From NCBI RefSeq assembly GCF_019443325.1, contig NZ_CP080383.1, positions 2,728,001 to 2,792,000 on the forward strand: a DNA stretch of 64,000 bases, written 5' to 3'. Shown one piece after another: positions 31,198 to 52,397 of this stretch (positions are counted from its first letter, which is position 1; every line of letters starts with the position of its first letter). The position numbers and the translations under genes were made by a program. The notes beneath the pieces were generated by a model. The model was not told where the DNA came from. It did no database searches and saw nothing but the letters and a program-made list of their open reading frames with translations. The stretch comes from Cryobacterium sp. PAMC25264. Lineage in GTDB: Bacteria > Actinomycetota > Actinomycetes > Actinomycetales > Microbacteriaceae.

Positions 31198-31247
31198 GGG
31201 TGTCCTCCGGAAGTGTTGTGAAAGATGAGGTTGAACAGGCGTTCGAT

Positions 31248-31302: not shown

Positions 31303-31314
31303 AACGGTGGACTA

Positions 31315-34761: not shown

Positions 34762-35403
34762 TTAGCCGAAGTAGCGGTCGGGGCGGTGGTTCATAGCGAT
34801 GATCATGTTGAGGATGACCGCGCCCACCACCGAGAGCAGCACCATTGGCACCGGCAGGGTGGCGAAGGCCGCGAGCACGATGAGCACGTCCACGACGAGC
34901 TGCACGTAGCCGGCCCGCCATCCGCGGCTCTTCTGCAGGTACAGCGCGAGGATGTTGACCCCGCCCAGGCTGGCCTGGTGCCGGAACAGCACGATGAGGC
35001 CGATGCCCGCGAGCAGACTGCCGAGCAGGGTGGCGTAGATCGAGTTCATGTCCCCGATTTCGAGCATGAGCGGGTGCACCTCGGAGAAGAGGGAGACGAG
35101 CACCACGGCCACGAGGGTCTTGAGGGTGAAGCGCCAGCCCATGCGCCAGATCGCCAGGGCGAAGAAGGGCAGGTTGACCAGCACGAACCACACGCCGAAC
35201 GACCAGCTGGTGGCGTAGCTGGCGAGCAGCGCGATGCCGGCGGTGCCGCCGGTGGCGACGCCCACCTCCTTGAGGAGGTAGAGGCCGAACGAGACGGCGA
35301 AGGTGCCGATGAACAGCGCGACCACGTTCTCGAAGCGGGTGTGCGGAACGCGGGGGGATGCTTCGGAGGGATCGACGATGGTGCCGGGGGCGGTGCGCGT
35401 CAT
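34762..35403 (-). CDS. YitT family membrane protein
   Basis: About 213 residues from ATG 35403 with five or six membrane helices. NVVALFIGTFAVSFGLYLLKEVGVATGGTAGIALLASY is the glycine-rich entry of YitT-type proteins, and HQASLGGVNILALYLQKSRGWRAG carries the second conserved repeat with its GG(T/V)(A/N) motif. The family's function is unknown. As read, the frame is open upstream into the lipoprotein gene, which I take to be an artefact of a one-base gap. Confidence 0.78.
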   Translation of the reverse strand: MTRTAPGTIVDPSEASPRVPHTRFENVVALFIGTFAVSFGLYLLKEVGVATGGTAGIALLASYATSWSFGVWFVLVNLPFFALAIWRMGWRFTLKTLVAVVLVSLFSEVHPLMLEIGDMNSIYATLLGSLLAGIGLIVLFRHQASLGGVNILALYLQKSRGWRAGYVQLVVDVLIVLAAFATLPVPMVLLSVVGAVILNMIIAMNHRPDRYFG

Positions 35404-35479
35404 GGGCGCAACGGGGCGGGGAACGGGGTGCTGTTCATTAGCCCATGGTAGCGAGGCGGCGGGTGCCGGCCCCGCCGGG

Positions 35480-36006
35480 TCAGCCCAGGGCGGCGGGCTT
35501 CTCCGGTACCGGACCGGGCCAGGGCCGTACCGGGCTTCCAGGTCGTCGACGGCAACGTCCAGTGCCGGGCCGGTCAGGTCGGTCCAGCCCAGCGCGGCGG
35601 CGGCCGGTGCCAGGTCCAGGGCGGCGTCTCCTTCTCGGAACGCCACGGTCGCGGTCGTGGTGGGCTCGTCCGTCGTGGCAGACCACGCCATCGCCAGCGT
35701 GTAGTCGAGCAGGGCGGGCACATCCCCGGCATACCCGGCGTCGAGGTTCAGCCCGACCGTCATTTCCACCTGGTTGGGCAGGCCCACAGGTCCGGCCGAG
35801 ACAAACGCGTCGCTCACACCGGGGAGCTGGCCGAGCTCGGCGGTGACCTGCTGGGTGGTGCGTTCGGCCACCGGAGCGGCCGCGGTCGGCTCCGGCTGCG
35901 CGCGGCCGAGCCCGGCGCATCCGCTCAACAGCGCCGCAGCAGTCAGGGCCGTCGCGAGGAGCACGCCGGCACGACGGACCCGTATCGATCGGTGGGGGCG
36001 AGTCAT
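35480..36006 (-). pseudogene. Putative lipoprotein, frame break near its end
   Basis: From ATG 36006 a signal peptide with lipobox ALLSGC (Cys near residue 30) leads a domain of about 150 residues (TTQQVTAELGQLPGVSDAFVSAG, LPNQVEMTVGLNLDAG), an alpha/beta pattern of unknown family. As read, the frame runs on into YitT. If one more C is put in the coding run at 35511-35512, the protein ends GPVPVPEKPAALG at stop 35480, which looks natural. The ATG lies at the stop of the hydrolase-like gene upstream, so it belongs to the T7SS-like gene run. Surface-anchored; function unknown. Confidence 0.6.
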
Positions 36007-36008
36007 GC

Positions 36009-37721
36009 TCAACGCTGCGCTCCGTAGTCGGTGGTCGTTGACACGATCTGATGGGTCCTGCTGTTGGTGGTCGTGGTCGTGGTGACGCCGGTGGTCGGGT
36101 CCGTGCTCGTGGTCACTTCCACCGGGTCGTCGCCGGCGGGGAAGTACCCGGCCGCGGAGTCACCCCACGCGGTGATGCTCGGGTCGGAGGAGGCATCGAC
36201 CTCCCCGGCGGTGATCGCATAGCGGTTGGGGTTGTGGGCACCCGTCTCCCCGCCGATGCCGACGGGAGCGCCCTTGTCGGTGGAGAGGGACGGCGCGGAT
36301 GCCTCAACGGTGGTCCAGTTCGCGGACTCGGGGTTGCCGTTGCTGTCGAGTTTGGGCACCGGGTCTTCGTCGAACTCCAGCGAGAGCACCTGCACGTCGC
36401 TCGGAATGTCGAAGTTCGCGATGGGCGCCCCACCGGTGACCACGTTGGTGATGTTGTAGTTCAGGGTGGGGTCGGCGGCCATCTGACCGGCGGTGATGCC
36501 GCCCAGGCTGAAGCCCTGCAGCATGACCGGGTCGTCGGGCATGATCCCCGCCTCCCGCATGGCCGCATCCACCGCGCTCGAGAGCGCCGTTTGCTGAGCG
36601 AGCATGGCGTGAGTGTCGCCGGTGAGGTCGTTAGGGGTGCTGCCGGCCTGAGCATCCCAGGACTGGGTGCTGGGAATCTGCACGATAAAGCTGGGCGGGT
36701 TGCCGGGCACCTCGGTGATGCGGATGCGGGCCAGCGCATTCTCGTCGCCGGTTGCGGAGGTGTCGTACTGGTCGATCTGCGCCGACCCGTCGAAGAGGGT
36801 CTCTAGGCTGGTGGGGGTCACAACGTCCGCACCGACGATCTCCGGCGGGGTGAACAGGTCATCGCCGGTGAGCAGAGGTCCGTCGTTGAAGTACCCGCCT
36901 CGGTTGCCCGCACCGATGATCGCCTGCAGCGCTTGCTCATAACTGGCGGGCGGCCACGGCATGCCGGTGAGCTTACCCAGCAGCCAGTTACTGCCGCCCA
37001 GGCTCAGCAGTCCGAGCGGAAGGGTGAGGCCGGCGAGCAGGCCGGGGGCACCCTGGGCGATCAGGTCGACAGCCCACGCGTTGTCACCGGCGAGAGCGTT
37101 GAGCTGTTCCAGCTGGTCGGCGAAGGCTTCATCGACGGTTTCTTGGGCATCGTCGACGTCGTAGGCGCCGGCCGTGTTCGCGGCCAGGGCAACGAGAGCG
37201 GCGCCCGGGTTCAGAAGCGAGGCGGGGTTGGCCAGGGTCTTGTCGACGCCCTCGCGGAGTGCGTCGAGGCCCTCGAGCACATACCCGCCGGCGTACACGG
37301 CGGCCACGTCGGCCAGCACGAGCACACCGGCACCGAGGGCCAGCGGAATGACCATGACCCCGGCCACGAGGGTCGTGGCGTTGACGGCCGCGTTGGCGAG
37401 GATCTTGAGGCTCGCGTCCACGGCCTCGTAGGCGTCGACGGCTCCGGCCAGGAACACGGCGGTGACGCCCGCATCCGTGGCGAAGATGAGCATCTGCCCG
37501 GTGGCGAACACGATCTTCTCTTCGGCCGTAGCGGCGGTGATCGGCGAGAGGAGCGCCGAGGCCAGCAGGTCGCCGTCCACGGCAATGTCGGCCGCGGCGA
37601 GGGCCTGATCGACGAGTTGCTGGGCCATGGCCGACAGCTGCGCGGATTCGGTGCGCATGTCGTCGAGGCTCGCCCCGATTCCGCCCGCTCCCCCGGAGAC
37701 GGTGAGACCCGACTCAGCCAC
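36009..37721 (-). CDS. Alpha/beta-hydrolase-like protein of the T7SS locus
   Basis: The 570-residue protein has a helical N-terminal third resembling T7SS substrates (LTVSGGAGGIGASLDDMRTESAQLSAMAQQL), then long hydrophobic stretches (AVNATTLVAGVMVIPLALGAGVLVLADVAAVY). The C-terminal half has VMLQGFSLGGITAGQM near residue 400, the G-x-S-x-G nucleophile elbow of serine hydrolases, and a possible His in GAHNPNRYAI. It may be a secreted or surface lipase/esterase. PE/PPE-lipase fusions of mycobacteria offer a parallel. It overlaps the upstream gene by 8 bp. Confidence 0.6.
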   Translation of the reverse strand: MAESGLTVSGGAGGIGASLDDMRTESAQLSAMAQQLVDQALAAADIAVDGDLLASALLSPITAATAEEKIVFATGQMLIFATDAGVTAVFLAGAVDAYEAVDASLKILANAAVNATTLVAGVMVIPLALGAGVLVLADVAAVYAGGYVLEGLDALREGVDKTLANPASLLNPGAALVALAANTAGAYDVDDAQETVDEAFADQLEQLNALAGDNAWAVDLIAQGAPGLLAGLTLPLGLLSLGGSNWLLGKLTGMPWPPASYEQALQAIIGAGNRGGYFNDGPLLTGDDLFTPPEIVGADVVTPTSLETLFDGSAQIDQYDTSATGDENALARIRITEVPGNPPSFIVQIPSTQSWDAQAGSTPNDLTGDTHAMLAQQTALSSAVDAAMREAGIMPDDPVMLQGFSLGGITAGQMAADPTLNYNITNVVTGGAPIANFDIPSDVQVLSLEFDEDPVPKLDSNGNPESANWTTVEASAPSLSTDKGAPVGIGGETGAHNPNRYAITAGEVDASSDPSITAWGDSAAGYFPAGDDPVEVTTSTDPTTGVTTTTTTNSRTHQIVSTTTDYGAQR

Positions 37722-38661
37722 GGAGCACCCCCAGCAAAGACCCGACCGCGGTGGTGACCTGGCCCACGATGGCGGCGGTGTTCGTGGTGCTGATGCGCAC
37801 CCGGCTGGAATCGACGAAGTCGGCGGTGGACTCGATGCGGCCCACCACCGGGGTGTCGGCGCTCAGCTGGAACCATCCGGTGGTGCCGCGGAACCAGTGC
37901 ACGGCCACGGTATCGCCGGTGAGCGAGGTGGCGGCGAGGGTGTTGCCGGCGTCGATGCCGAACGCCGCACCCTCGAGCACCCGCTCGGCCTGCGGCACAC
38001 CCACCTGCAGGGCGGCGGCGTGAATGATCTCCGGGTTTTGGGTGCGAATGGCCCCGATCATGCCCTGAGCCAGGGTGAGCGGCAGCACGACGGAGCCGGC
38101 CGGGGTGTCGGGGGTGTCGTCGTCCTGGGGTTGCAGCCGGATCAGGGCGCGCAGGGCCTCGCTGATCAGCGCGGCCACCGGGAAGGCCGACAGCTCGACG
38201 GCGTCTTCGTTGCGGGGCTCGGCACCCCGGTCGTTGAGGCGTTGACCCCGCACGAGCGAAGCTGCAAAGCCGGCTCGCACGGCGATGGTCTGCAGGATGG
38301 TGCGGCCGCCGCCCCAGGAATGCACCGTCAGGAGCAGGGCCGGTTCGGTGAACAGGCCGAGGAAGCTCAGCACGGCCGGGTGCACGCGGGCCGCGAAGTC
38401 GGGCTCGGCGCCTGCGTCGGTGTTGGGGCTGAGGGCCGAGGCGGCGCGGAGCAGGCCCTGATCGATCAGGCCCATCTCGGCGGCGTGCATCCGCTCGGCG
38501 CGTTCGTCGGCCGGCACCTCGTCGGCCCACTCGGAGCGGAACTCCGGGGGAATGGCGAGGCCGGCGCATTCGACCTGCAGCAGGTGGAGTTGATCGACGG
38601 TGAGTCCGAACCGGGCCGGCGTGCGCGGCACGGTGCGGGGGGACGCGATGGAGAAAGCCAT
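37714..38661 (-). CDS. Hypothetical protein, possible EspG-like T7SS chaperone
   Basis: The 315-residue protein starts LTVDQLHLLQVECAGLAIPPEFRSEW after a short tail. It has no signal peptide or clear membrane helix, and alternates alpha and beta (VHWFRGTTGWFQLSADTPVVGRIESTADF). The N-terminal pattern and size recall EspG, the chaperone that binds PE/PPE-type substrates, but the match is weak. It lies between the long WXG-like protein and the hydrolase-like protein, a good place for a chaperone. Otherwise unknown. Confidence 0.5.
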   Translation of the reverse strand: MAFSIASPRTVPRTPARFGLTVDQLHLLQVECAGLAIPPEFRSEWADEVPADERAERMHAAEMGLIDQGLLRAASALSPNTDAGAEPDFAARVHPAVLSFLGLFTEPALLLTVHSWGGGRTILQTIAVRAGFAASLVRGQRLNDRGAEPRNEDAVELSAFPVAALISEALRALIRLQPQDDDTPDTPAGSVVLPLTLAQGMIGAIRTQNPEIIHAAALQVGVPQAERVLEGAAFGIDAGNTLAATSLTGDTVAVHWFRGTTGWFQLSADTPVVGRIESTADFVDSSRVRISTTNTAAIVGQVTTAVGSLLGVLRG

Positions 38662-38663
38662 GG

Positions 38664-39152
38664 TTACCAGCCCCGTTGGTGGAAGGTGTCGGAAAGAGCG
38701 AGCCAGTCGGGCGAGCCCGGGGCCGGCAGCTCCCGCACTGTGCGGATGAGTTCGTCGGCCTCGTTCACGAGCGCACCGGGCACCTCGGTGCCGAAGAACT
38801 CGAAGACGTTCTCGGCGCCCTCGGCGATCACCTCGACGGTGTTCCCGACGAGTCGGGCGGCGTCGTTCCAGCGATCGGAGATCCACTGTTCGGCTTCGGC
38901 GATGGCCTGTCTGACGAGCTCGACAGCGCGGATGTGCGCGTCGATCGCGTCGGCCGCCTCCTCGAGCGAAGCGGCGGAGGAGTCGAGGTTGCCGGCGCGC
39001 TGGCCAAGCTGGTCGATGAAGGTGGCGGCGGCAGCCGAGACCCAGGTGTCGCCCACGGCCGAACGGAGAACGCCGGCGCGGGTGCGAGTGTCGGCGGCGA
39101 GTGTGCGCAGCTCGGTGGACCTGCGGCCGAGCGCTGCCATGTCGCCGTACAT
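38664..39152 (-). CDS. WXG100/ESAT-6-like helical protein
   Basis: The 162-residue protein begins MYGDMAALGRRSTELRTLAADTRTRAG and has DTWVSAAAATFIDQLGQRAGNL. The Trp-Val-Ser turn between two helices corresponds to the W-x-G turn of ESAT-6-like proteins. A second helical part includes WISDRWNDAARLVGNTVEVIAEG. No signal peptide is present. It is likely a T7SS substrate or its partner. The stop lies 2 bp before the next start, so the two are probably made together. Confidence 0.6.
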   Translation of the reverse strand: MYGDMAALGRRSTELRTLAADTRTRAGVLRSAVGDTWVSAAAATFIDQLGQRAGNLDSSAASLEEAADAIDAHIRAVELVRQAIAEAEQWISDRWNDAARLVGNTVEVIAEGAENVFEFFGTEVPGALVNEADELIRTVRELPAPGSPDWLALSDTFHQRGW

Positions 39153-39313
39153 CCGGTCTCCCTGATGGTGGTTGGTGCTGCTGATGGTGCGTGCCGCGGC
39201 TGCGGCGATCGCGTGCGGTGCCGATGCGGCGGTTGCTGCGACCGCAGATCCGGCCGCGGATTGACCAAAGGCGTGACCGGATACCGGCCACGCCTTAGGT
39301 CACACGAGCGGAA

Positions 39314-39610
39314 TTAGCCGCTGATGCCGCGAGCGAGCTCGCTGTCGACGTTCTCCATGGCGTCCGCGGCGCGGACGAGGAACTCCGACATGCCGGTGAG
39401 GCCGTTGACGGCCTCGGTGGTGCCCTTGGTGAACTGCTCGTAGGAGGTGTGGAAGGCGCCCGATGCGGCGTCGGTGACGAAGCCACCGGCGACGAGGTTG
39501 TTGACCAGGCTCTGCAGCTGGGAAAGCTTGGCGGTGAGGTCGTCCTTGCCTGAGATCAGGTTCTTGGACGCGTCGCGCATTTCGCTGTAAGTAACGTTCA
39601 TATTCGCCAT
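39314..39610 (-). CDS. WXG100 family T7SS protein (turn Trp replaced)
   Basis: A 98-residue all-helical protein of WXG100 size: MNVTYSEMRDASKNLISGKDDLTAKLSQLQSLVNNLV, then turn AGGFVTDAASGAFHTSYEQFTKG, then a second helix ending MENVDSELARGISG. At the W-x-G position it has Gly-Gly-Phe (42-44), so the signature Trp is missing. The ATG at 39610 follows AAGGAG; ATG 39601 is possible. It should form a helical-hairpin dimer and be exported by the EssC motor. Confidence 0.8.
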   Translation of the reverse strand: MANMNVTYSEMRDASKNLISGKDDLTAKLSQLQSLVNNLVAGGFVTDAASGAFHTSYEQFTKGTTEAVNGLTGMSEFLVRAADAMENVDSELARGISG

Positions 39611-39743
39611 GAGAAGAGCTCCTTGTTTATTCGTTCGGGGCCAACCCCCTCAGGCCGACCGACTATGTATAACCTAACGAACCCGGGTTGCGGAGCGGAA
39701 TGGGCAGCACTCCCCATGCGGTCCCCGCCGCTAGCCGTGCTGG

Positions 39744-40646
39744 TTAGGAGACGGATTCGCCGCTGTAGAGCGACTTCCCGCTGCGCCAAGCGTTCAGGCA
39801 GCCGATCACAGCCAGGGCTGCGCATCCGGCGGCGATCCAGAGGATCCACGCCAGCCAGGCGGGGTCGGGCACGACGGCGCACGACTGGGTGTAGCAGTCG
39901 TCGGCGGCCGACTGGTAGACCAGCGGGATGGTCCCGAGAATCGCCCCGAACCCGAACGCGAACCAGAGTTCGAACCGGAACCGGTACGACATCGCTCGCC
40001 AGAAAACCTGGCTCACCGAGCCGGGCACGATCTGGTCGCCGAACCGGTTGGCCAGGGGCTCGTAGGTGAGCCGCTTGAGCAGGGAGAACAGCAGCACAGC
40101 GGCCATCCCCGACGCGAAGAATCCGTACAGCACGAGCAACACCCAGAGGCTGTCGTCGGCGTCGGCGAAGGTATCCGTGGTGACATCGAGGTAAACCGGA
40201 ACCGCAATGAGCCCTACCCACGCCGCCACACTGAGCAGGATGAAGAGCGCACGACTCCACAGCGGAGCCGGCCGCAGCTCCACCACGTTGGAGCCGCCCT
40301 GGATGAACCCGCGCTCCCGGGTGCTCCACCGCCCGCGGCGGTGGAATTCGGCCAGGAACAAGGGGGCGGCGGCGAGCATGAGGATCATGATCGGTGCCGC
40401 CACGAGGTTGGTGCCCCAACTGGCGCCGCCGACGAAGTCGCTCAGGTTACGGCCCTGCGCGGTGACGCCGATGAGCACGGCCAGCACCACCAGGGCGATG
40501 ACCACGAGGATGCCGCCGACCAGGTAAAGGGTACCGGCCCGGAATCGGGTCGGCTGGCTCTCACCCTGACCCGGGGACGCTGTACTCGAGCGGCTGGCAA
40601 CGAGCTGCCGGCGGCGCTCGGCGGCGCTCTTCTGCGGCCCGCTCAC
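39744..40646 (-). CDS. Multi-pass membrane protein of the T7SS locus
   Basis: The 300-residue protein has a basic N-terminal tail (SAAERRRQLVASRSS) and about six membrane helices, for example TLYLVGGILVVIALVVLAVLIGV and LWVLLVLYGFFASGMAAVLLF. An extracytoplasmic loop near the end holds two Cys (DDCYTQSCAV) that could form a disulfide. I do not recognise a family. It overlaps the upstream gene by ATGA, so it belongs to the T7SS-like operon and may be a channel or accessory subunit. Confidence 0.6.
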   Translation of the reverse strand: MSGPQKSAAERRRQLVASRSSTASPGQGESQPTRFRAGTLYLVGGILVVIALVVLAVLIGVTAQGRNLSDFVGGASWGTNLVAAPIMILMLAAAPLFLAEFHRRGRWSTRERGFIQGGSNVVELRPAPLWSRALFILLSVAAWVGLIAVPVYLDVTTDTFADADDSLWVLLVLYGFFASGMAAVLLFSLLKRLTYEPLANRFGDQIVPGSVSQVFWRAMSYRFRFELWFAFGFGAILGTIPLVYQSAADDCYTQSCAVVPDPAWLAWILWIAAGCAALAVIGCLNAWRSGKSLYSGESVS

Positions 40647-41254
40647 GAGGCGGCCACTGCAATGCCGCTGAACCGCACCGAGTCAACGATCGCGTCGAAG
40701 AGTTGGGTGTACAGCTCAGTGTCGCTGGCCATCGGGGCGTCGACCACGATGTGCAACAGCTTGTCGTCGTCTGGCGTGACCAGCCAGTACTGGATCTTCA
40801 CATCGTTGGTGGTCTCCTCGCCGGCGCGGATGGTGGACGCGAACGCTCGCCGCACGGCCAGGCCGCTGTCGAGGCTGAGAAGCTCGGCCCCGGGGAAGGC
40901 CAGCCGCAGGCGCTGCTCGGTGTCGTCGGCCGGCACGGGCGAGCCGGGAGCCGTGGGCGGCCAGTCGGAGTAGTCGAGCACCATGGCGGCCGGGAACGGC
41001 ACGCCGGGAAGGATCTCGAGCGAGAGCGCCACGCGGAAGGCACCGGCCGCGGCAGCGGCAGCGGCCATACCGCGCAGCTGTTCCTTGGCATCTCGGCGGA
41101 GGCGCGCGAGCCGGTCGTCCCGGCCGATGCGGCGCTTGACCACGGAAGCGATCTGGCGCTCAAGGGTCGGCGGGTCATCGAGCGGCAGAGTGAGCCACGA
41201 ACCGGGCAGAACAATGGACAGGTTCGCCTCGGCGAACTTCATCTGACGGGTCAT
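40643..41254 (-). CDS. Hypothetical protein of the T7SS locus
   Basis: The 203-residue soluble protein starts MKFAEANLSIVLPGSWLTLPLDD after a short lead. It has a helical middle (RRIGRDDRLARLRRDAKEQLRGM) and a beta-rich end (KIQYWLVTPDDDKLLHIVVDAP). I know similar genes only from T7SS loci of actinobacteria and can give no function; an immunity or chaperone role is possible. It overlaps both neighbours by four bases. Confidence 0.55.
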   Translation of the reverse strand: MTRQMKFAEANLSIVLPGSWLTLPLDDPPTLERQIASVVKRRIGRDDRLARLRRDAKEQLRGMAAAAAAAGAFRVALSLEILPGVPFPAAMVLDYSDWPPTAPGSPVPADDTEQRLRLAFPGAELLSLDSGLAVRRAFASTIRAGEETTNDVKIQYWLVTPDDDKLLHIVVDAPMASDTELYTQLFDAIVDSVRFSGIAVAAS

Positions 41255-41886
41255 TCGGTGGGCCCCAGGTCGAGTTCGAGTGAGCCGACGATGAGCTGCG
41301 TTTCGGCGCGCATATCGCCGAACGTGGCCAAGTCGGCAGAGGTGAAGGTGAACTGCACCATCTCGGTGGAGTTCGGCGGGAAGACGCCGAACATGGTGCG
41401 GGCTTCCACCCAGCCGATCTCGTCGCCCGCCGCGAAATACTCGGTGACCTGATGGGCACCGACGAACCGACCGGCGGGCAGCTCACCCTGCCAGGTCTCG
41501 AAGTTGAGGGTGAACGCATCCGCCGCGGTCTCCGCGGCCAGCTCACGCGCGGTCTGTTCGTACCAGTCCGGGCCCTGCTCGGGCTCCATCTCCACCACCT
41601 GGAAGGTGAGGAGGAGGCCCAGGCTCATGAACTCCTCGGGGCGAATGTGCACGGCCGCCGTGAGATAGGGGTTCAGCTGGGCGAGCAAGCGGATGCGCAA
41701 CTCCTCCAACTGCCCGAGCATCGAATCTTCGTGGTCGAGGCTGCCGGTCTGGGCCGTGACCTCGGCCACCACCTCGCGGGCCCAGGTCGCCGAGTCGATG
41801 TCCTCCTCGAGCCGCACAGGGTGGAACCCGTCGGAGATCTGGATCCGAAGATCGAGGATTTCGTTCAGTGGAGCGTCACTCGTCAT
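41251..41886 (-). CDS. Hypothetical protein of the T7SS locus
   Basis: The 211-residue acidic protein has no signal or membrane helix (LNEILDLRIQISDGFHPVRLEEDI, LRIRLLAQLNPYLTAAVHIRPEEF). It is mostly alpha/beta and ends in ETQLIVGSLELDLGPTE. Placed directly after the large substrate-like gene (9 bp gap) and coupled to the next gene by ATGA, it is a candidate immunity or targeting partner. No family recognised. Confidence 0.55.
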   Translation of the reverse strand: MTSDAPLNEILDLRIQISDGFHPVRLEEDIDSATWAREVVAEVTAQTGSLDHEDSMLGQLEELRIRLLAQLNPYLTAAVHIRPEEFMSLGLLLTFQVVEMEPEQGPDWYEQTARELAAETAADAFTLNFETWQGELPAGRFVGAHQVTEYFAAGDEIGWVEARTMFGVFPPNSTEMVQFTFTSADLATFGDMRAETQLIVGSLELDLGPTE

Positions 41887-41895
41887 GCAGTCAGC

Positions 41896-43187
41896 CTATC
41901 CGGGGGTCAATTTGGGCAGGTCGCCGTGCGACAGGTCTTTGAGGATGCTCTCCGGCTTCAGCGACAAGCCCCGGTCTTCGTGGTCGAACGGGTTGTTGGT
42001 GAGGGTCCCGGCCTTGCTCGCCAGCGAGCGGTAATTCATCACACCGAGAAACACTTTGGCACCGGTGGGAATTCCGGCCGCGGCAGCGCCCGTGAACACC
42101 GGGTTGTCGAAGCCCTGGATACCTAGCGGGTTGCGCCGGAAGTTGTGCCATGCTGCGCCGAGGTTCTTCTCGGAGACCTTGAGCGGGTTGGTGCCGAAGA
42201 CCTCTTTCATGACGTTGGGCAGCTTCTTGGGCGAGCCCAGCATGGCCTGCACGTCCTTGAGCTGGGCGGCCTTCTGGCCGCGCGGAATGCCGGTGAGGGT
42301 GGTGAACTGCTTGCGCGGCAGCTTGAGAGCTGCGGTGATGCCCTTGGCCTTGACCAGTTTGGTGGCGTACTTGGCGATGTTGCCGCCGAACACGGAGAGC
42401 ACTACGCCCACAGCGGCGAACGCGACGTCGCCCCAGCTGCCGCCGTTGACGGCCTTGATGGTGGCCTCGATCAGGGTGATCACGGCGCCGACAACTGCGA
42501 GCACCAGCAGGATCTGCCCGAGGAACGGCACCCAGGAGAAGAAGATGGCCAGGACCCCGGCCCACTCGCACACAGTCTTGAGGATGTCGAGGGCGGCCTT
42601 GCCCAGTCATCCCACCAGGTGTCGTTGAGAGCCTCGCCAGCCTTTCCGTCGATCACGTTCAGGATGGAGCCGATCGCAGTCTGCGCTGCCTGGTTCTTGA
42701 CATCCAGCGCGGAGTGCCACTCCTGGTGCGCGGCAGCGAGATCCTGGCCGGCGGTCTGCGCGGCAGTCTCGGCCTTGGTGGCGGCGGCGGTCTCGGTGCT
42801 GGCGGTCTCCGGTGTCGCGTTCTCGGCCTTGGTCGCGGCGCGGGTGGCCGCTTGCGAGGCGGTGGCGGCCGCGCTCTCCTTGTCGTTGATGTGCGAGATA
42901 GCCGTGTTCGCGGCATCCTGCGCGCTGCGCAGCTGGGCCGAGTAGGTAATCAGTGCCTGAGCGGTGCCGGAGTACCGGCTCTGCGCTTTTCCGATGTCGT
43001 CAGCAACCGTGCCGGCCTCTTCACGCACCTTGTCGATGGCTTTGGACGTCATACCCTCGGTGGACTTGATCGCGTTGAGCGTGGTGACGGAACGCGTGAT
43101 GGCGTCGGCCAGTTCGGCATAGCGGTCTGCTTTGGACCGCACCAGGTCGGGGTCGCCCTCAAGGGCGCGGAATTCGCTGTCGGTCAT
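41896..43187 (-). pseudogene. Large T7SS substrate-like protein with T7SS signal and hydrophobic domain, frame break near 42603
   Basis: Residues 1-50 (LEGDPDLVRSKADRYAELADAITRSV) match the 'putative T7SS secretion signal' type. A long Ala/Glu/Thr helical coil follows to about residue 195. After NDTWWDDW the frame breaks. One more C in the plus-strand run 42602-42604 joins it to GKAALDILKTVCEWAGVLAIFF, a pair of hydrophobic helices, and a C-terminal domain of about 150 residues (FTTLTGIPRGQKAAQ, GIQGFDNPVFTGAAAAG) of unknown fold. Total about 430 residues. The layout is that of polymorphic toxins exported by T7SS, but I cannot name an activity. Confidence 0.65.
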
Positions 43188-43510
43188 GGGGTCACCTTCG
43201 TTGCGGTCATGGGCGGCATCGACGCTGCGGCGTCATTGAGAGCCTTCGCCAGGCTGTCGTCGACCTCGGTGAAACCGTCGGTGATGGCGCCGATCTTCTG
43301 CTGGAGCGCCTTGACGGACTCGAGCATCGTCTTGCGCTTGTCATTCCACTTCGAGGCAAAGTCGGAAACGTGCCCGCCGAGTTCATCGTGCCCGGTGGCG
43401 GTCGCCACGTCGTTGCTGAACTCGTCGGCGTTGGTGAACTCGTTGACGACCGCGTCGAGGTCGTCGCGCAGCTGGTGTAGCAGCTGTAAGTCGAAGTTGA
43501 GATCACTCAC
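43184..43510 (-). CDS. Small WXG100-like helical protein
   Basis: The 108-residue protein has helix-turn-helix shape: LQLLHQLRDDLDAVVNEFTNADEF, GHDELGGHVSDFASKWNDKRKTMLESVKALQQKIGAI. The Trp-Asn-x turn and 100-residue length suit a WXG100-like partner. It overlaps the start of the large substrate-like gene by four bases, as small Lap/WXG partners do for LXG-type toxins. It probably dimerises with that protein for export. Confidence 0.6.
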   Translation of the reverse strand: MSDLNFDLQLLHQLRDDLDAVVNEFTNADEFSNDVATATGHDELGGHVSDFASKWNDKRKTMLESVKALQQKIGAITDGFTEVDDSLAKALNDAAASMPPMTATKVTP

Positions 43511-43646
43511 TATCGGTTCCCCCTTGGTCTGCGGCCGGGCCGGGCCCCTCGCGACGGATGCGCGCTGGTCGGCTGCCTGTCCTGAACACTACCGAAGCCC
43601 CCGCACGGGTTCGATGGGCAGCGGTCCCCATCCGTCCGGTCGTGGT

Positions 43647-43712
43647 GGTTGAGCTTGTCGAAACCTGCCCGACGACGAGAGAACGGCTCACCAGGTCTCG
43701 ACAAGCTCGACC
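43647..43712. repeat. Palindromic repeat pair between essC-like gene and T7SS substrates
   Basis: GGTTGAGCTTGTCGAAACC (43647-43665) and GGTCTCGACAAGCTCGACC (43694-43712) pair as a 19-bp stem with two mismatches, in the 229-bp gap between the motor gene and the small WXG-like gene. It may separate two transcription units. Confidence 0.7.
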
Positions 43713-43739
43713 GACGACGGGGCCGCGACCCAGAGGGCG

Positions 43740-46700
43740 TCACTGGAGGAGCGGCAGCTGCACCCGCACGAAGTTGCCCTTGGCGATGAGCACCCCTCTG
43801 CCGGGTGGGAACTCGGAGCGGTTGAGGCGGGGCAGCGCGGTCTTCAGCAGGATGTCGCCCTCCACCGATTCGGGCTGCAGCAACAGGCCCCGGCGGGAGT
43901 TCTTGATCTCGCCGAACAACGGCCAGGATGAGCTCCACGCGCTGGTCTCGGCCTCGCCGAGCAGGAAGTGGTCGCTGCGCTTGACCGCCCGGGTGAGCTC
44001 GAGGATCGGGCCGTCGGCGCTGGACTGCAGGAAGTCGCCCAGGCTCTCGACGAACACGGCGATGCGTCCCTCGGTGTCGGGGTCGGCCACCGCGGCGGCG
44101 AGGTCCTTGGCCAGCGCCGCGACGGCGTCGACGGTGGTGGCAGCCTCGGTCCACAGACCCAGCCGGGAGATCGGAGAGCGGGCGTTGCCGAAGTAATACA
44201 GTCGCGCATCCGGTTCGAACCGCTTGAACGAACGGGCGATCGACTCGATGGCGGTGCTGCGGCCGCTGGCGGGCGGGCCGGCCAGCAGCAGGGTACCGCT
44301 GGGTTCGAAACCGGCCGGGCCGAGGTCGACGTCGCCGAGGCCGAGCACGACCCGCTCCCCCACGCGCGCCGGCAGCTGGTCCTGCGGGTATTCCTTGGGC
44401 AGCGAGCCGATGATGGGCGCCTCAGCCACGCCCGCACGGCGCATGGCCTCGGCCAGCCGCCGGGTGGCGTCGGACTGGGCCGACTGGGCGGAGAGCCCGC
44501 CGAGAATCGCGATCTGGGTTTCGAAGCCGTCCACGATGGCGCGGCCGGCCGGCGACTTGACGCTGAGGATGTCGCTGGGCACGTCGAGCATGCCGTACCC
44601 GTCGTCGGCGAGCCGCAGCACGACCTTCCGCTGGATCGCAGAGGAGATCGACGCGGGCACGGCGCCGGCACGGTCGGCGGTGAGGGCCACGTGCAGGCCC
44701 AGCTGTCGACCGTCGGAGAGGATGTCCTTGAACACGTCGAACCACTGGGCGCGGCCGGCGGTGATCTCGAAGTCGTTGCGGAAGTTGGGGAACCCGTCGA
44801 TGAGCAGCAGGATGCGCGGCTCGGTCGGCTGCCCGGCCAGCTGCCGGTACTCGCTGATGTTCGACGCGTTCGCCTCGGCGTAGAGCGCCTTGCGGCGGTC
44901 GAGTTCTCCTTGCAGGGTGCGGAACAACCGCACGATGCGTTCGGTGTCGTCGCCCATGATGATCGAGCCCACGTGCGGCAGCTGCTCGAGCATGCGCAGG
45001 CTGCCGGCGCCGAAGTCGAGCCCGTAGACGTGCACGGGTCCGCCGCGCGGGGTGATCGCCGCGGCGCAGGCGAGGGTGCGCAGCACCGACGACTTGCCCG
45101 AGCCACCGGTGCCGAAGACGGAGAGATGGCCGTCGATGTCGGGGCGGAAGTACGCGGAAACCTGCTGCTGCTGCTCGGCGACGTCGGAGACGCCGAGGAG
45201 GAGTTCGGCATCCGTGCGCTGCCGCAGCAGGCTGAGGTCGTAGGCGGCGGCGAGCTCGTCGAGCCACGGGCGGCGGGGCGCAGGGATGCCGGCGCCGGCG
45301 TTGGCGGCGACGATCGTGGTGACCAGACGCTGCTGGTCGGTGGGGCCGAGGTCGCGGTCTTCGTCGACGTTCTCGGTGGAGCGGGGCTCCTCCCAACGGC
45401 TTTCGGCGCCGAAGCGCAGCTCGTGCACGTCGATGCCGGCGCGCTCGGGTTCGCGGCTGGTCCACCCGCCGGCATAGGCGGACTGGAACTGCGCGAGCCG
45501 GCCGGGGCCGGTCTTGGCGACGCCGCGGCCCGGGATGGCCGGGTCGAAGTGCGCGGAGTCCTTGGTGCCGATCACGTCGGTGCTGTCGGACTCGTCGGCC
45601 ATCCGCAGCGCAATGCGCAGCGGAGTGTTGGCACGCAGGTTGTCCTTGATCACGCCGGCGGGGCGCTGGGTGGCCATGATCAGGTGGATGCCCAGCGACC
45701 GGCCGCGCTGCGCGATATCGACGACGCCGTCGACGAACTCGGGTACCTCCGTGGCCAGCGCCGCGAACTCGTCGATGACAAGCACCAGGGCGGGCGGGCT
45801 GTCGGGGTCGCCGCGCTTCTCCAGCTCGAGCAGGTCCTTGGCCTTCTTGCGGTTGAGCAGGTGTTCGCGGTGGTGCAGTTCGGCGCGGAGGCTGGTGAGC
45901 GCTCGGCGCACCAGGTGCGGGCTGAGGTCGGTGACCAGGCCCACGCAGTGCGGCAGGGTGACGCAGTCGGCGAACGCCGAACCGCCCTTGTAGTCCACGA
46001 AGAGGAAGGTGACCCGGTCGGGGCTGTATTCGGCGGCCATGCCGAGCACCCAGGCTTGCAGGAACTCGCTCTTGCCGGCACCGGTGGTGCCACCGACGAG
46101 GGCGTGCGGGCCCTGGGTGCGGAGGTCCAGGTGCATGGCGTCGACACCGGCGGAGCCGATGATGGCGCGCAGCTTGCCGGCCCGGCGGGGCTTGGGCGTG
46201 CCGCCGGAACGGTCGTGGATGGACGTGTTCTGCTGCCACCGGTCGATGACCGCGGCGCTGGTCTCCACCATCTCGTGGCCGAGCAGGGTCACCAGGGACA
46301 CCGTGCGGGGCAGGTCGCTGGCGTCGGCGACGAGGGCGCCGGCGTCGATGACCGGGGCCATCCGCTTGGCGAATTCGAGGGCGGTGACCGAGTCCAGCTG
46401 TTCGGTGACGACGTTGTCGATGGTCTCACCCAGGCGCACGAAGCCGACCGTGGCCAGTCCGGCGTCGTCGGCGAGGTGCAGGTAGGTGCGGCAGACGGCG
46501 GGCAGCGCGGCCACGGTCGGGCCGATCCAGATGGGGTAGACGCCGGCGTCGGCGGCGATCTCGGCGAGTTGCACGAGGCGGGCCCGATCGATGGCCACGT
46601 CATCGGAGATCAGCAGCACGATCGCGGGGATGGGCGACTTGGTGCCCTGGTCGGAGCCCTTGCCGACCTCGCCGCCGCGTTCGAGCGCGGCATCCGTTTG

Positions 46701-48210
46701 CCCATGGCGCCGCGACGCTGGGTCTTGGCCTGGGCGAGGCGGGCCTCGACGACGCCCTCGATGCCGGAGAGCACGGCGCTGGCGCTGGCGGCGCTGTCGG
46801 CGAGGTGGCTGCCCTCGAGCGGGCTGTGCGGGGAGGAGGTGTGCGGCATCCACTTGAGCCACTCCAGCTCGCGGGACCAGCGCGGGGTGAGCAGCGACGC
46901 CACGACGAGTTCGGCCGGGGAGTGCAGCGCGGTGAGCTGCACGAGGATCGAGTTGATCGAGCCCATCGCCTGCACCGGCGAACCGGCGATACCAAGCGCG
47001 CCGGAGTCGTAGAGGTTGTCGATCAGCGGCACGCCGTCGAGGGTCTGGTTGGCCTCGACGACCTCGGTGAGCTTCTCCTGGAACTCGGGCAGCATGTCGC
47101 CGCGGCTGGAGTCCTTGATGGTGTTGCGGGAGTTCATGGTGCCGATGCCCAGCCGGACGTTCAGGAACGACCAGTGCTCGGGCCGACGCGTCCAAAGAAG
47201 CGGGCCGCGGTTCATCGCGTGCTCGTGCGCTTCCTGCGTCGACGGGGATTCCTTGAGCCGCAGGTCGAACTCAGTAACCCGTTCGGTGGCCAGGCGTGCG
47301 GTGAGCACCTCGAGGCGGGATTCGAACGTGGCGATGGCCTTGGCCAGTCGGCGCTTGTCGCGGGATTTGGTGGTGGCGAAGTTGCCGATCAGCATCACCG
47401 GCGAGAGCAGGCAGAAGAGCAGGCTGATCGGGCTCTGGGTGAACGCGAACATGGCCCCACCGAGCAGCAGCGGGGTGATCATCGCCAGCAGCGGGAACGG
47501 CTGCGGCTCCTTCTCCACCGGCACCTCCGGCGCGGTGAATTCCTGGCCGATGTAGCGCTTCTCCACCTTGGGCGAGCGGTTGAAGAAGATCGGGCCGGGC
47601 TTGGGTGCGGCCTCGGGGCGGCGCCGGCGACCAGGCTGATTTCCACCTCGGAGTCGCCGAGCAGCAGCCGTTCGGTCTTGGCGATGCGCAGCCGGCCCAC
47701 GATGCCGCCGTCGACGACCACACCGTTGGCGCTGCCGAGGTCGATGACCTCCACGGTCTCGCCGATCTCCAGACGCGCGTGCTTCTTGGAGACCAGGCTG
47801 TCGTGCAGCACGATGTCGCAGCCGGGGTCGCGGCCGAGCACCAGGCTGCCGGGCGCGAGCGGAAAGTCGGTGCCGGCATCCGGCCCGGTGAGCACCCGCA
47901 GTTGCGCGACCGGCGGCTGGGTAAGCGTGGACGGCGCCTGGTAGAGCACACCGGCGTCGGCCAGGCTCACGGATGCGCCGGAGCCGATCCACGCCTCCCC
48001 CACCGGGCCGTCCGGCGGCAGGGTGAGCGGTGCGCTCTGCCCGGGCAGCGTGGCGCGCAGGGTGAGGTACCGGTCGGCCGAGTGCACGGTCTGCGCATCC
48101 ACCCGGCTGATGGTGCCGGCGATCTCGCTGATCGTGGCGGCGGCATCCGCGGTGACGATGATGTCGCTGGCGGCGCCGTTGGGGCGAACCAGGGTGAGCT
48201 TGAGGCGCAT
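43740..48210 (-). pseudogene. essC: T7SS motor ATPase, EssC/EccC type with N-terminal FHA domain, two frame breaks
   Basis: If one base is added at 47615-47618 and one at 46701-46703, a protein of about 1490 residues results. N-terminal 100 residues: beta-rich ubiquitin-like or FHA-like part. FHA domain about 115-185: LVLGRDPGCDIVLHDSLVSKKHARL, DLGSANGVVV. Two membrane helices near 235-270. Three FtsK/SpoIIIE ATPase modules: GGTTGAGKS near 707 with VIDEFAAL; GTGGSGKSS near 1037; GPPASGRS near 1313. This is the plan of EssC, the T7SSb motor that pulls WXG100 substrates out. EccC proteins of mycobacteria lack the FHA part. The ATG at 48210 is the first in frame. Confidence 0.85.
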
Positions 48211-48276
48211 TCGGTCCCTATTTCAAGTTGCAGGCAGAGCTGTGCGGGGGTGCGGTGGTGCGTCGGGCGTCGGGCG

Positions 48277-48765
48277 TTACTCGCCGCGGCGTTCCCAGGG
48301 CCAAAGCGGGCGGCCGTGTTCGCCGTAGTGCGAGGCGAGCAGGATCGAATAGCTGAGCGCCACGATGAACGCCAGCGCGCCTACGCTGAGCGCGAAGGGG
48401 CTGGCGAGCATCGACCCGGCAAAGAGTACGACGGCGAACGGGTCGCCGTTGCCGGCGGCCACGAGGATGGCGCCGGTGGCGATGAACAGTCCGTACGCGG
48501 CGATGCCCGTGGCAACGGCAAACCCCACCACGACGCGTTGCTTGTCGGGTGGGGTGTTGACGCCGAGGAGGATGAGCATGAGCAGCACCAGCAGCACCGC
48601 GACGGCGGCCATGGTGGGGCCGACGAGTGGGCCGGCGGAGCGGTCGGCGATGACGTCGAGGTTGGTGGCCAGGCTGATCATGCCGAAGGCGGCCACGAGC
48701 AGCGCGGCGTAGAGCACCGTCGCGAAGACGGCGACGATGGTCGCGTACTTCTGATAATCGCGCAT
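48277..48765 (-). CDS. Four-helix membrane protein of the T7SS locus
   Basis: About 162 residues from ATG 48765 with GGGGGGAG just upstream. Four membrane helices (for example IVAVFATVLYAALLVAAFGMISL and VVVGFAVATGIAAYGLFIATGAILVA) are joined by short loops, and the tail ends PLWPWERRGE. No family recognised. It lies 66 bp before the motor gene and is likely co-transcribed, so it may be a small T7SS membrane subunit. Confidence 0.6.
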   Translation of the reverse strand: MRDYQKYATIVAVFATVLYAALLVAAFGMISLATNLDVIADRSAGPLVGPTMAAVAVLLVLLMLILLGVNTPPDKQRVVVGFAVATGIAAYGLFIATGAILVAAGNGDPFAVVLFAGSMLASPFALSVGALAFIVALSYSILLASHYGEHGRPLWPWERRGE

Positions 48766-48792
48766 GTGCTCCCCCCGCACTGCTGCCGGCGG

Positions 48793-49818
48793 TTAGGCCG
48801 GACGAGCGAGCTGCGGTCCTTCGGCGAGCTGACGCTCGTACTCGGCCTTGGCGGCGGCGTTCTTCGCGGTGACGCTGCGACCGCGGCGGGCGATCCAAGC
48901 GCCGAACCAGATCGGCACCTCGCGGGCCACGATGGCTGCGGCGATGGCGCCGGGATTCAGCCACTGGGTGGTCACGAAGCGTCCGGCCTCGGCGGGGGTG
49001 AGGTTCCACGCCTGCACGGCCAGCAGGGCGCCGCCGATGTAGGAGAAGTACACGACCACGGCCACAAGGAAGCCGCCGAGCACGTAGGCCCACCAGCCGG
49101 CGCGGTTGAGCACCGCCACCAGCAGGGCGAAGGCGAGGAAGAAGAAGATCACCGGGATGTAGAAGACCGGCAGCACCAGGAAGTCGGTAAACCGGGTGGT
49201 GGCCTCGGCGACCGTGGGGGCGCTCGACGCGGAGATGACGAACGCGACAACCGCGTAAACCACGGCGAACACGGCGGTGGCGATCAAGCCGATGAGGATG
49301 CCCGCGGCGCGGTTGCCCGCGGTCTTGGGCGGCGTCGGAGCCGTGACGTACACCGGGGTGGGCGCGAACTGCTGGGTGGGCGTGTACTGCTCGGCGCTGG
49401 GCTGCTGCACGCTCGGCTGCTGCACGAGCGGCTGGCTGGCCGCGGCGGGCGTGGGCACGTACGCGGGCGTGTAGTCCTTCTGCTGGGCAACGGCTTCGTC
49501 GCGAGCGACCTCGGCCGGGGTGGCCTCGGGCTCAGCGGTGAGGCGTTCGACCTTTTCGGTCGGCGCGTCGGAGTCGGCGGCGGTATACGGGGCCGGCTCG
49601 TAGTCGATCGGCTCGCCGGGGACGTACGGGGCGGGCTCGGCGTCGGGCGCTGGCGTCTCGGCGGCGGGCTCCACGTGGGGGTCGATCACGGTCTCGTCGA
49701 CGACCTTGCTGGGGTCGGCCACGGTGGTGGGCTCTGGGGACTGGTTGTCGTGGATGGGCGTGGTGGGCGCATCCGGGTTGTGGTTCTTGTTTCCCTCAGG
49801 GGGCGTCGTGTCGGTCAT
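48793..49818 (-). CDS. Membrane protein with long Pro/Glu/Thr-rich N-terminus
   Basis: The 341-residue protein has about 160 disordered residues rich in P, T, E and A (TTPPEGNKNHNPDAPTTP, LVQQPSVQQPSAEQYTPTQQ) and then four membrane helices (AAGILIGLIATAVFAVVYAVVAFVIS and on), ending in a charged tail (RSVTAKNAAAKAEYERQL). The start at ATG 49818 follows GAGGAG. Family unknown. It is the first gene of the leftward run into the T7SS motor, 117 bp from pilO. Confidence 0.6.
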   Translation of the reverse strand: MTDTTPPEGNKNHNPDAPTTPIHDNQSPEPTTVADPSKVVDETVIDPHVEPAAETPAPDAEPAPYVPGEPIDYEPAPYTAADSDAPTEKVERLTAEPEATPAEVARDEAVAQQKDYTPAYVPTPAAASQPLVQQPSVQQPSAEQYTPTQQFAPTPVYVTAPTPPKTAGNRAAGILIGLIATAVFAVVYAVVAFVISASSAPTVAEATTRFTDFLVLPVFYIPVIFFFLAFALLVAVLNRAGWWAYVLGGFLVAVVVYFSYIGGALLAVQAWNLTPAEAGRFVTTQWLNPGAIAAAIVAREVPIWFGAWIARRGRSVTAKNAAAKAEYERQLAEGPQLARPA

Positions 49819-49935
49819 GCTGCACTCCTCGTGAGCCTCGTGGCCGTAGCTCTGTGCTGCAACTGTAGCAATCAGGGGTGCGAAGTCGACGGAAGCTTGG
49901 CGCGCGCGGCGGGGAAGCGTTGTGTCACTCGCCGG

Positions 49936-50652
49936 TCATTCAACCGGGGCTACTTCCTGCCCGCTGGGCACGAGCACGTAGACGAGGCCAGAGATGGTCG
50001 CGGTCACGTCATCGGGAGCGGCGGCGGCCTCGTCTCCCGCACCGTGGGCGCTTGTCAAGCCCGACACGAGGAACAGGCGCGCACCGGTTTGCAGACCGTT
50101 CACGAATTGGAGTGTGTTGACGTAGCTGCCCTTGACCGTCACGGTTATGTCCATAGAGGCAAAGTTCTCGGTTGTGATCTTCGAGTTAGTCACCGGCGGC
50201 GTACCCAGGGACGGTGTGCCGGGTTCCGGCACCGCGGTCGGAGCCGGGCTTGCCGAAGAGTCCGTTTCCGTGGCGGGCGCTGCAACCGCTTCGGGTGCCA
50301 CTACAGGTACGTAGGGCGCCGGGTCGGCCACGGTAATTCCTTTCAGCGTGACCTGGGTGCTTCCGGCGAGCGCATCGAGCTGCTTGAAGAAAGCGGCCAT
50401 GCCCGTCTCCGACGGCACCGATGCGTTGAGCGGAGCCAATTCACTCTTCAGGGATTCAAGGCCGGTGAAGTCCTGCTTCAACTGGTCAAGCACGGCCGCC
50501 TGGCCAGCGTTCGCGGTTGCCACCGTGTCGCGCTGGGCGTTCGCGGCCGCCGCAGCGGCGAGCTGCGGTTGAATCCCAAGTATTGTGCCCCCGACCAGCA
50601 CCACGATCATAATCAGGATGGAGCCGATCATCCAGAATCGGTTCTTGTCCAT
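49936..50652 (-). CDS. pilO: Type IV pilus inner-membrane protein PilO
   Basis: The 238-residue bitopic protein has one membrane helix near residues 7-27 (FWMIGSILIMIVVLVGGTILG), a coiled part (LDQLKQDFTGLESLKSELAPL) and a PilO-type ferredoxin-like domain (MAAFFKQLDALAGSTQVTLKGITV) interrupted by a Pro/Ala-rich insert of about 40 residues. Its C-terminal part has VTVKGSYVNTLQFVNGLQTGARLF. It forms the PilM-PilN-PilO alignment complex. It starts 2 bp after pilN. Confidence 0.82.
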   Translation of the reverse strand: MDKNRFWMIGSILIMIVVLVGGTILGIQPQLAAAAAANAQRDTVATANAGQAAVLDQLKQDFTGLESLKSELAPLNASVPSETGMAAFFKQLDALAGSTQVTLKGITVADPAPYVPVVAPEAVAAPATETDSSASPAPTAVPEPGTPSLGTPPVTNSKITTENFASMDITVTVKGSYVNTLQFVNGLQTGARLFLVSGLTSAHGAGDEAAAAPDDVTATISGLVYVLVPSGQEVAPVE

Positions 50653-50654
50653 GG

Positions 50655-51317
50655 CTACTTCTCCTCGCCGGTGAAACGCTGCGCAAGGGCGGCATCGTTG
50701 ACGTGCATGATCAGGGTCACAGTGAAGACACCGTCTTCGCCCCGGGCCACAGAGCCGGGAAGCACGTCTGCCACCCCTCTCAAATCGGCGAGGGAATCCA
50801 ACCAGGTAGGCACATCCGGCAGGATCGCGCTCTTCACAGTGAACGTCACCGTGGCCACGCGGGCACCTTGTAAGGGCGCGGTGGGCTGCACATAGAGAGC
50901 CAGGGGCGAGGCCGAGTCCACGGTCACTGTCTCCACGCTCACACTGGGGGGAAGGATGGCTTGGACGCTATCCAGGTACGACTTCCAGTCAATTTCGGTT
51001 GACGCCCCTACCTGCTGCGCAGCCCTCACAAGCTCCACCTGGCTTTGCACGGTTCGCACCTCGAGGTACTTGGATTGTTCCTCGAGTAGCTTGGGCGTCA
51101 GCGCCTGCTCGCTGGCCAATTGTGATTGGGCTTGCATCGCCCACGCAATAGACCCACCGATACCCAGCGCCATGAACGCCACCACACTAATGACACCCCA
51201 GCCCATTCGACGACGAACGACTCTGGCGTGACGCTCACGGTGTACTTCGGGAGGAAGCAGGTCAACTCTGGGAACACCGCCGACGATCAGGGCGACGTCC
51301 TTGCCCGCGCGGCTCAC
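50655..51317 (-). CDS. pilN: Type IV pilus assembly protein PilN
   Basis: The 220-residue protein begins with a short cytoplasmic tail holding VPRVDLLPPEVHRERHARV; the 'LLP' motif near the start is the PilN site that binds PilM. One membrane helix (GVISVVAFMALGIGGSIAWAM), a coiled coil (SQLASEQALTPKLLEEQSKYLEVRTVQ) and a ferredoxin-like fold follow. GTG start overlaps the pilM stop (GTGA). Confidence 0.85.
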   Translation of the reverse strand: MSRAGKDVALIVGGVPRVDLLPPEVHRERHARVVRRRMGWGVISVVAFMALGIGGSIAWAMQAQSQLASEQALTPKLLEEQSKYLEVRTVQSQVELVRAAQQVGASTEIDWKSYLDSVQAILPPSVSVETVTVDSASPLALYVQPTAPLQGARVATVTFTVKSAILPDVPTWLDSLADLRGVADVLPGSVARGEDGVFTVTLIMHVNDAALAQRFTGEEK

Positions 51318-52363: not shown

Positions 52364-52397
52364 GGAATTACTCCTTTGTCACTGTTTGAAAACACGT

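Follow-up and report, generated by a model that had tools for sequence, protein, structure and literature searches.

How a type VII secretion system (T7SS) could operate from a locus that encodes a motor and its cargo and no recognisable envelope component is the question raised by a minus-strand gene cluster of Cryobacterium sp. PAMC25264 (genome G000, a single contig of 4.06 Mb). The window, that is, the whole analysed stretch of 64,000 nucleotides (G000:C1:2728001-2792000; feature positions are counted from its first letter), contains an FtsK-type motor gene with an FHA domain, WXG100-like genes and a substrate gene with a T7SS_signal domain. An earlier note, made from the letters of the window, had described this locus as a compact or new T7SS variant in which unfamiliar membrane proteins replace the Ecc and Ess parts. 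We consider it likely that the window encodes the motor and cargo of a T7SSd/e-like T7SS, as one half of the system, and that the envelope and phospho-signalling half is an operon 0.82 Mb away. The motor locus is probably not compact, its partners being encoded elsewhere in the genome. The underlying gene content, domains, conservation, co-occurrence and predicted folds are results of computation. G-numbers denote genomes, L-numbers fetched loci or stretches, and c-numbers protein families from gene calls.

A Pfam scan of 20 pieces of the window bore out much of the earlier description. An FHA domain (PF00498, 4.2e-13, on the open reading frame (ORF) piece 47479-48210) and FtsK_SpoIIIE modules (PF01580, 2.7e-53) mark the proposed EssC-type motor, which is nevertheless spread over three frames in the window and is not one ORF. 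The WXG100 protein (39314-39610; PF06013, 2.2e-16) and the T7SS-signal protein (ORF 42480-43187; PF21725, 2.2e-6) were confirmed, and the EccB, EccD, EccE, MycP, EssA, EssB and EsaA families gave no match among the 20 pieces, as the note had reported. Nor did any of these pieces match an accessory gene, the kinase included, or a separate YukD-like protein. The EccB family (PF05108) was silent in G000, but equally so in every control genome. Neither Ecc homology nor a standard ESX locus, the two ways in which the note could have proved mistaken, was found within these searches; what was found elsewhere in the genome is an accessory operon of T7SSd/e type.

A candidate partner operon elsewhere in the genome

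This operon occupies 1934.3-1955.1 kb of the G000 contig and encodes a transglutaminase, a DUF58 protein, a MoxR protein, two proteins of ~1750 aa, c6, a kinase (PF00069, 2.4e-33), an FHA protein and a PP2C phosphatase, all its genes being open. Of the two ~1750-aa proteins, the one scanned (1754 aa) contains seven Big_9 stretches and one fn3 domain; as called, neither ORF shows a hydrophobic segment, and their starts may be short (open frames extend to 1810 and 1893 aa). A search of nine Cryobacterium genomes for proteins of this TsdI-like type placed two of the three G000 copies near 1.94 Mb and the third at 445 kb. The c6 protein (L150:16355-17149) has a mean column identity of 62% in eight sequences; by eye, its N-terminus looks FHA-like and its conserved C-terminal half helix-turn-helix-like. 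None of the six FtsK-family places of G000 falls in the operon, and the window motor finds nothing better there than E 4 (L150, L154); the same operon in G004 and G003 gives only short FHA-region matches to the motor (E 0.001 and 0.006). It stands ~0.83-0.91 Mb from the motor in G002, G004, G007 and G024, and in G035, G018 and G036 a kinase and a TsdI-like gene adjoin the motor.

Named genomes from Microbacteriaceae, Micrococcaceae, Promicromonosporaceae, Nocardioidaceae and other families contain at least 80 motor loci, and at least 547 of 591 pattern matches are relatives. According to gene calls, a common order in Micrococcales is MoxR-DUF58-transglutaminase-FHA(c1)-PP2C-c1-kinase-c6-motor-WXG100, followed by one or more effector cassettes, each with a WXG100-like protein, a T7SS_signal substrate, a variable small protein and a member of family c9; the domain names of these families were checked by Pfam on the G000 copies. 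In many Micrococcales loci, the accessory genes thus continue directly into the motor, unlike in the window.

Because the gene caller did not call the motor of 24 of 100 loci, most often picking antisense ORFs instead, the family counts are lower bounds, and the accessory genes around the motors were recounted by tblastn over 99 motor loci. In 53 of these, the motor has at least two of four genes (kinase, transglutaminase, c6, TsdI-like) beside it. Sixteen loci with flanks of at least 7 kb on both sides have fewer than two, which defines the state "none" (L091 has a transglutaminase, L114 a PP2C and c1), and 30 with short flanks, L037-L041 among them, were left unclassified. Mapped on the motor tree, "none in flank" takes 13 changes, of which well supported branches force 12, and 24 of 500 shuffles give a value as low; this state is therefore scattered and not the outcome of a single event.

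Across 248 genomes of the order, 60 have both c6 and a motor of at least 1000 bits, 12 the motor only, 37 c6 only and 139 neither. Where both are present, they lie less than 2 kb apart in 37 genomes, 4-12 kb apart in 11, 0.54-1.73 Mb apart on the same contig in six and on different contigs in six. Within Cryobacterium, the remote-type transglutaminase (at least 67% identity) was found in ten genomes, namely the eight that have a motor and no local accessory set, plus G008 and G032, which gives 8/8 genomes without a local set against 2/29 others (Fisher 1e-6, uncorrected for kinship). "No local set" denotes a motor of at least 55% identity without accessory genes in the fetched stretch; G008, with c1 and c6 beside its motor, was placed among the 29, the G026 contig stops just upstream of the motor, and the G022 motor adjoins one c1 gene. 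The limits of 1000 bits and of 67% and 55% identity were picked after the lists had been inspected.

A kinase of the remote-operon type (E<=1e-40) is present in all 17 genomes behind named loci. Fourteen of them lack a motor-side operon by gene calls, and their best kinase lies on another contig in 13, which in draft genomes does not prove distance, and 9.8 kb downstream in Mycetocola; the other three (L067, L071, L101) have a local operon with the kinase 11-14 kb from the motor. None of 16 stretches fetched around such kinases in 13 of the 17 genomes contains a long-motor hit. Among them are motorless operons, some cut by the end of the stretch, of Leifsonia poae, Humibacter albus, two Agromyces, four Microbacterium, one Arthrobacter and a Frigoribacterium metagenome-assembled genome. 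From such gene neighbourhoods, the split arrangement seems to recur in related bacteria.

Several observations weigh against the pairing of the window with the 1.94-Mb operon. The co-occurrence of motor and c6 (Fisher 4e-20) is not corrected for shared ancestry, 12 of the 72 long-motor genomes have no c6 match, and 37 of the 97 c6 genomes have no motor of at least 1000 bits, though some have weaker ones. Furthermore, c6 has no Pfam match, G032 has the remote-type transglutaminase in pieces and no long motor, and the remote-type operon of G003 may serve a second long motor (48% identical) situated ~24 kb away. With breaks in both the window motor and the substrate, PAMC25264 may have lost a working system. 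Finally, G000 has a second T7SS-like operon at 443-459 kb (L149, G000:C1:443000-462990), of PFNA type and with a shorter motor, which could provide the parts instead. The window motor would then work with this operon or with both, and the 1.94-Mb operon would serve another role, such as envelope sensing. Like the latter, the 443-459 kb operon has a kinase, PP2C, TsdI-like protein, MoxR, DUF58 and transglutaminase, and a match of the size given by its motor (~200-220 bits, over the first ATPase module) is listed for each of 37 Cryobacterium genomes, four loci having been inspected (L149, L151-L153). However, it already possesses its own 993-aa motor, which has no FHA domain, and a separate FHA protein, and the sole c6 match of G000 lies in the 1.94-Mb operon. 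We regard this alternative as improbable and keep the 1.94-Mb operon as the favoured partner of the window motor.

The motor gene and its reading frames

The reading frames of the locus were assigned from the phase of third-position GC content (GC3) along the minus strand. In motor piece 1 (47614-48210), residues 1 to ~96 probably form a ubiquitin-like domain, and residues ~97-199 are the FHA domain. Piece 2, in another frame by GC3 phase (46658-47593), carries two hydrophobic helices by hydropathy and the first part of the EssC-like body, and was matched by tblastn in all 20 relatives' loci searched. Piece 3, in the third frame (43740-46652), contains the ATPase modules, with P-loops at piece residues 188 and 514 and a degenerate one at 792. 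The GC3 phase shifts near 47.6 and 46.65 kb, with no gene boundary visible at either point. Sixty relatives (37 Cryobacterium and 23 others) were searched with the C-terminal piece, and 58 match it at E<=1e-20, a count that takes in shorter motors and other FtsK-like proteins; the motor locus is not a product of chance. About 20 of them match with at least 850 bits. In G004 and G024 this piece is 99% identical and forms part of a single 1490-aa ORF.

DNA alignment with four relatives revealed three uncompensated frame-changing length differences against all of them, of which the motor has two and the substrate one, as would befit a decaying pseudogene island that secretes nothing in PAMC25264. 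Against the closest relative (L038), however, each of these is a shortfall of one base, and the remaining non-triplet gaps are intergenic or in compensating pairs; against the other three relatives the gap sizes differ and the effect on the frame is unchanged. Single-base shortfalls in a single-contig assembly are a pattern of base-calling error. The open genes of the remote operon, together with the near-identity of the C-terminal motor piece to the intact copies, also speak against decay. We consider a pseudogene island unlikely, and assembly error the likelier source of the broken motor and substrate frames.

The C-terminal motor piece remains below the cut-offs of all three curated families, scoring 413 bits against 778 for the EssC equivalog TIGR03928, 309 of 347 bits for EccCb and 265 of 509 bits for EccCa (TIGR03924/03925), scores that are lowered because the window motor gene is broken. 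These values agree with the earlier view that an actinobacterium has here a T7SS variant whose motor is of FHA type and which is neither clearly T7SSa nor clearly T7SSb. In the FHA domain, G126 R127, S141, H144 and N162, which we take to be its phosphothreonine (pThr)-binding set, are invariant across 30 motor sequences.

In the predicted model, motor residues 1-96 have the order E2-8 E14-20 H27-37 E49-54 E80-85, which fits a ubiquitin-like beta-grasp. Profile matches are weak, one of 30 members reaching E 0.043 against the YukD profile and the window's own member none, with E 0.26 against a designed ubiquitin; the fold search on the motor N-terminus took residues 97-199. A ubiquitin-like domain followed by the FHA domain is probable. 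The 28 short homologues recovered for the N-terminal motor domain are, by length and annotation, probably fragments of the same motors. A contig labelled Sporosarcina beigongshangi (Bacillota; L123) bears an Arthrobacter-like motor locus, probably an assembly contamination.

Likeness to known systems and a possible mechanism

Assigned by gene content and not by clade, the system probably most resembles T7SSd/e and probably works like a T7SS. The available text of Garrett, Higginson and Palmer (2024, PMC11217815) describes the parts of T7SSd of Actinomycetota as one gene cluster. The features shared with it, as given there, are an EssC-type motor with FHA and a conserved pThr site, a WXG100 protein, a Ser/Thr kinase, a candidate for the very large exported immunoglobulin (Ig)-domain protein, and a locus in which a separate ubiquitin-like protein was not seen. 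The TsdC counterpart, an FHA motor with conserved pThr residues, is found in intact relatives, the window copy being in three frames; the TsdA counterpart is the WXG100 protein at 39314-39610. The TsdD kinase, expected in the same cluster, is absent from the window and present as genome content through the remote operon. To TsdI, which that text portrays as very large with a signal peptide, Ig-like domains and a C-terminal transmembrane segment, the remote ~1750-aa protein is likened by domain content and description. The published system also includes TsdH, a small protein with a single transmembrane segment. Unlike in the published T7SSd cluster, the parts are split here, a PP2C and an FHA protein are added, and a ubiquitin-like domain is apparently fused to the motor; such a domain inside the motor would explain the "missing" ubiquitin-like protein of T7SSd. 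T7SSe of Bacillota, in the same text, likewise adds the PP2C phosphatase and FHA protein, whereas its ubiquitin-like protein, TseB, is separate, its core contains two WXG100 proteins, and its phylum differs. A word search of the main text of PMC11217815 returned no MoxR, DUF58, transglutaminase or Microbacter-. T7SSb/EssC and T7SSa/ESX share the FtsK-type motor with WXG100 substrates, whereas the motor piece here falls under their EssC, EccCa and EccCb cut-offs. No description of a split system was found among the titles and abstract beginnings surveyed, and the portion available of the polymorphic-toxin survey PMC3482391 mentions neither MoxR nor YukD.

The PFNA operon of Bifidobacterium (pkb2-fn3-aaa-duf58-tgm, with prpC and fha in some) has been published, according to the available text of PMC8430577, as a host-immune sensing operon unique to bifidobacteria; the word "secretion" is absent from its main text, and no paper linking the operon to type VII secretion was found in the literature searched. 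By gene content, not sequence comparison, it shares with the remote operon a kinase, an FN3 protein, MoxR, DUF58 and transglutaminase, in the same set and order as far as that text gives them, and differs in that c6 here sits between the kinase and the FN3-type proteins. We tentatively suggest, at a little under an even chance, a phospho-regulated T7SS whose motor has a built-in EsaB/YukD-like domain and whose kinase/FN3/MoxR/DUF58/transglutaminase module is detachable; in that case, the PFNA operon of bifidobacteria would not primarily be a host-cytokine sensor but T7SS machinery in which FN3 is the part that spans the wall.

FtsK-type motors are hexameric, a property applied here by analogy. 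In the mechanism that we infer, which involves secretion, complex formation, a phospho-switch, antibacterial use and joint working of the two loci, the motor would read the helical signal of the WXG100 proteins together with the T7SS_signal domain of the substrate and thread substrates through the membrane. The kinase may phosphorylate a threonine of a partner, to which the motor FHA domain would bind, thereby coupling the motor to the envelope parts, and the PP2C phosphatase would reset the phosphorylation. The motor-fused ubiquitin-like domain could do the work of the EccD domain of ESX or of EsaB/YukD, a separate protein in T7SSb. Like EsaA, the ~1750-aa Ig/FN3 protein might span the wall, with the MoxR, DUF58 and transglutaminase-like proteins assembling or anchoring it. 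If true, this would extend the parts list of the FHA-type T7SS of Actinomycetota beyond the five published T7SSd parts (by PP2C, FHA, c6, MoxR, DUF58 and transglutaminase), would mean that motor-centred gene-neighbourhood searches can miss the rest of the machine, and would offer a concrete function for the PFNA operon of gut bifidobacteria.

Cargo genes, the upstream pair and the surroundings

Downstream of the three motor pieces, all genes described below follow on the minus strand in the order given by GC3. The first encodes a WXG100-like helical partner of the substrate (c8; 43184-43510), with a weak WXG100 match (E 0.33) and a conserved place before the substrate gene. The substrate (c7) has its T7SS_signal domain in the N-terminal piece (42570-43187, within ORF 42480-43187) and, in another frame (41896-42573), a C-terminal piece in which a hydrophobic hairpin is conserved and the tip differs from strain to strain; the frame changes near 42.6 kb, and both pieces form one ORF in G024/L038. 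Protein G (c27; 41251-41886), small and soluble, varies with the substrate tip and is a probable immunity protein or partner; it is only 28-32% identical in L037, L039 and L040, although the motor C-terminal pieces there are 95-99% identical. Protein F (c9; 40643-41254), also small and soluble, is a probable effector chaperone or immunity protein. Its AF2 model (pLDDT 92.7) has a Mog1/PsbP-like fold, VIA-align finding matches that cover most of the domain, and a sequence-only fold search found no useful match. Family c9 counts 39 genes in 31 of 100 loci as a lower bound, and HHalign relates it to the protein G family at 87.6% over ~50 columns. That F and G are both immunity proteins and not chaperones is a fair possibility, held slightly short of even. 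Before export, protein F may hold the hydrophobic hairpin of the substrate or neutralise its tip. If true, a Mog1/PsbP-fold effector partner would connect the handling of T7SS effectors with a fold known from the T6SS, in its Eag chaperones and its immunity proteins.

Next come protein E (c45; 39744-40646), a polytopic membrane protein with six hydrophobic segments, and the WXG100 protein (39314-39610), a probable TsdA/EsxA-like core substrate in which a motif scan found no literal W-x-G. Protein E occurs in effector cassettes, varies along with the effector and is a possible immunity protein. The second cassette begins with protein T (38664-39152), helical and T7SS-substrate-like, with sub-threshold matches to PPE (0.014) and T7SS_signal (0.1), and conserved with the next two genes. 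Protein C (37714-38655) was framed by GC3, with homologues aligned; a single gene at 37714-39291 was rejected, since by GC3 the true gene begins near 38650 and 38664-39152 is a separate gene in another frame. An EspG-like chaperone role for protein C found no support, the sole Pfam match of six members at E<=10 being unrelated and no relevant PDB match appearing. Protein B (36009-37721), the second probable effector, joins a hydrophobic N-terminal half to a serine-hydrolase-like half with GFSLGG; GFS[LQ]GG, two Asp columns and one His column are identical in all five aligned sequences, the window's included, and no Pfam match exceeds the cut-off. The second long motor of G003 (L161, G003:C97) carries a cassette of T-C-B type. 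On the best reading of these sequences, the system would export, besides WXG100 proteins, the products of two effector cassettes, one of which includes a Mog1/PsbP-fold partner. Its cargo, a polymorphic protein whose tip varies and a hydrolase, would probably be antibacterial.

The earlier note had counted protein E and the two membrane proteins upstream of the motor (48277-48780 and 48793-49818) as stand-ins for Ecc/Ess parts of a compact, self-sufficient T7SS. All three are clearly polytopic and lie beside the motor, and the upstream pair is directly upstream of it in L037-L041. However, 48793-49818, present in 35/37 Cryobacterium genomes and 0/23 other relatives (E<=1e-6), also occurs in 15/17 Cryobacterium genomes whose only motor match is weak (<~230 bits; G013 and G034, with motor fragments, excluded). 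Around it, 24 of 30 loci show no motor N-terminus within a flank of ~1.5 kb, 48277-48780 still being its neighbour in 21 of these 24, and the pair adjoins the motor in 11-12 of 100 loci, a lower bound. Because it is found in Cryobacterium without a long motor, the pair is rejected as T7SS parts, and protein E belongs with the effector cassettes. A self-sufficient locus is thereby rendered very improbable, and the compactness seen by the note gives way to probable partners in the remote operon.

Beyond protein B, an ORF at 35480-35920 was discarded as being in the wrong frame; GC3 favours 34762-36012, with a lipoprotein-like N-terminus that reads in frame into a YitT-family membrane domain. L038 has a YitT-like ORF with its own start, and frame loss or fusion is possible for the window copy. 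One flank of the island is a type IV pilus operon (PilM and PilO by Pfam; 27763-32159), and the genes on the other (48277-62580) look by eye like rpsL-rpsG-fusA-tuf. Motors of other genera have rpoB-rpoC on one side and rpsL on the other, again judged by eye (L077, L100), and the site looks like an insertion hot spot. Elsewhere in the window, positions 4001-16000 have a GC content of 56-59%, compared with 60-72% in the remainder, and are possibly a recent acquisition.

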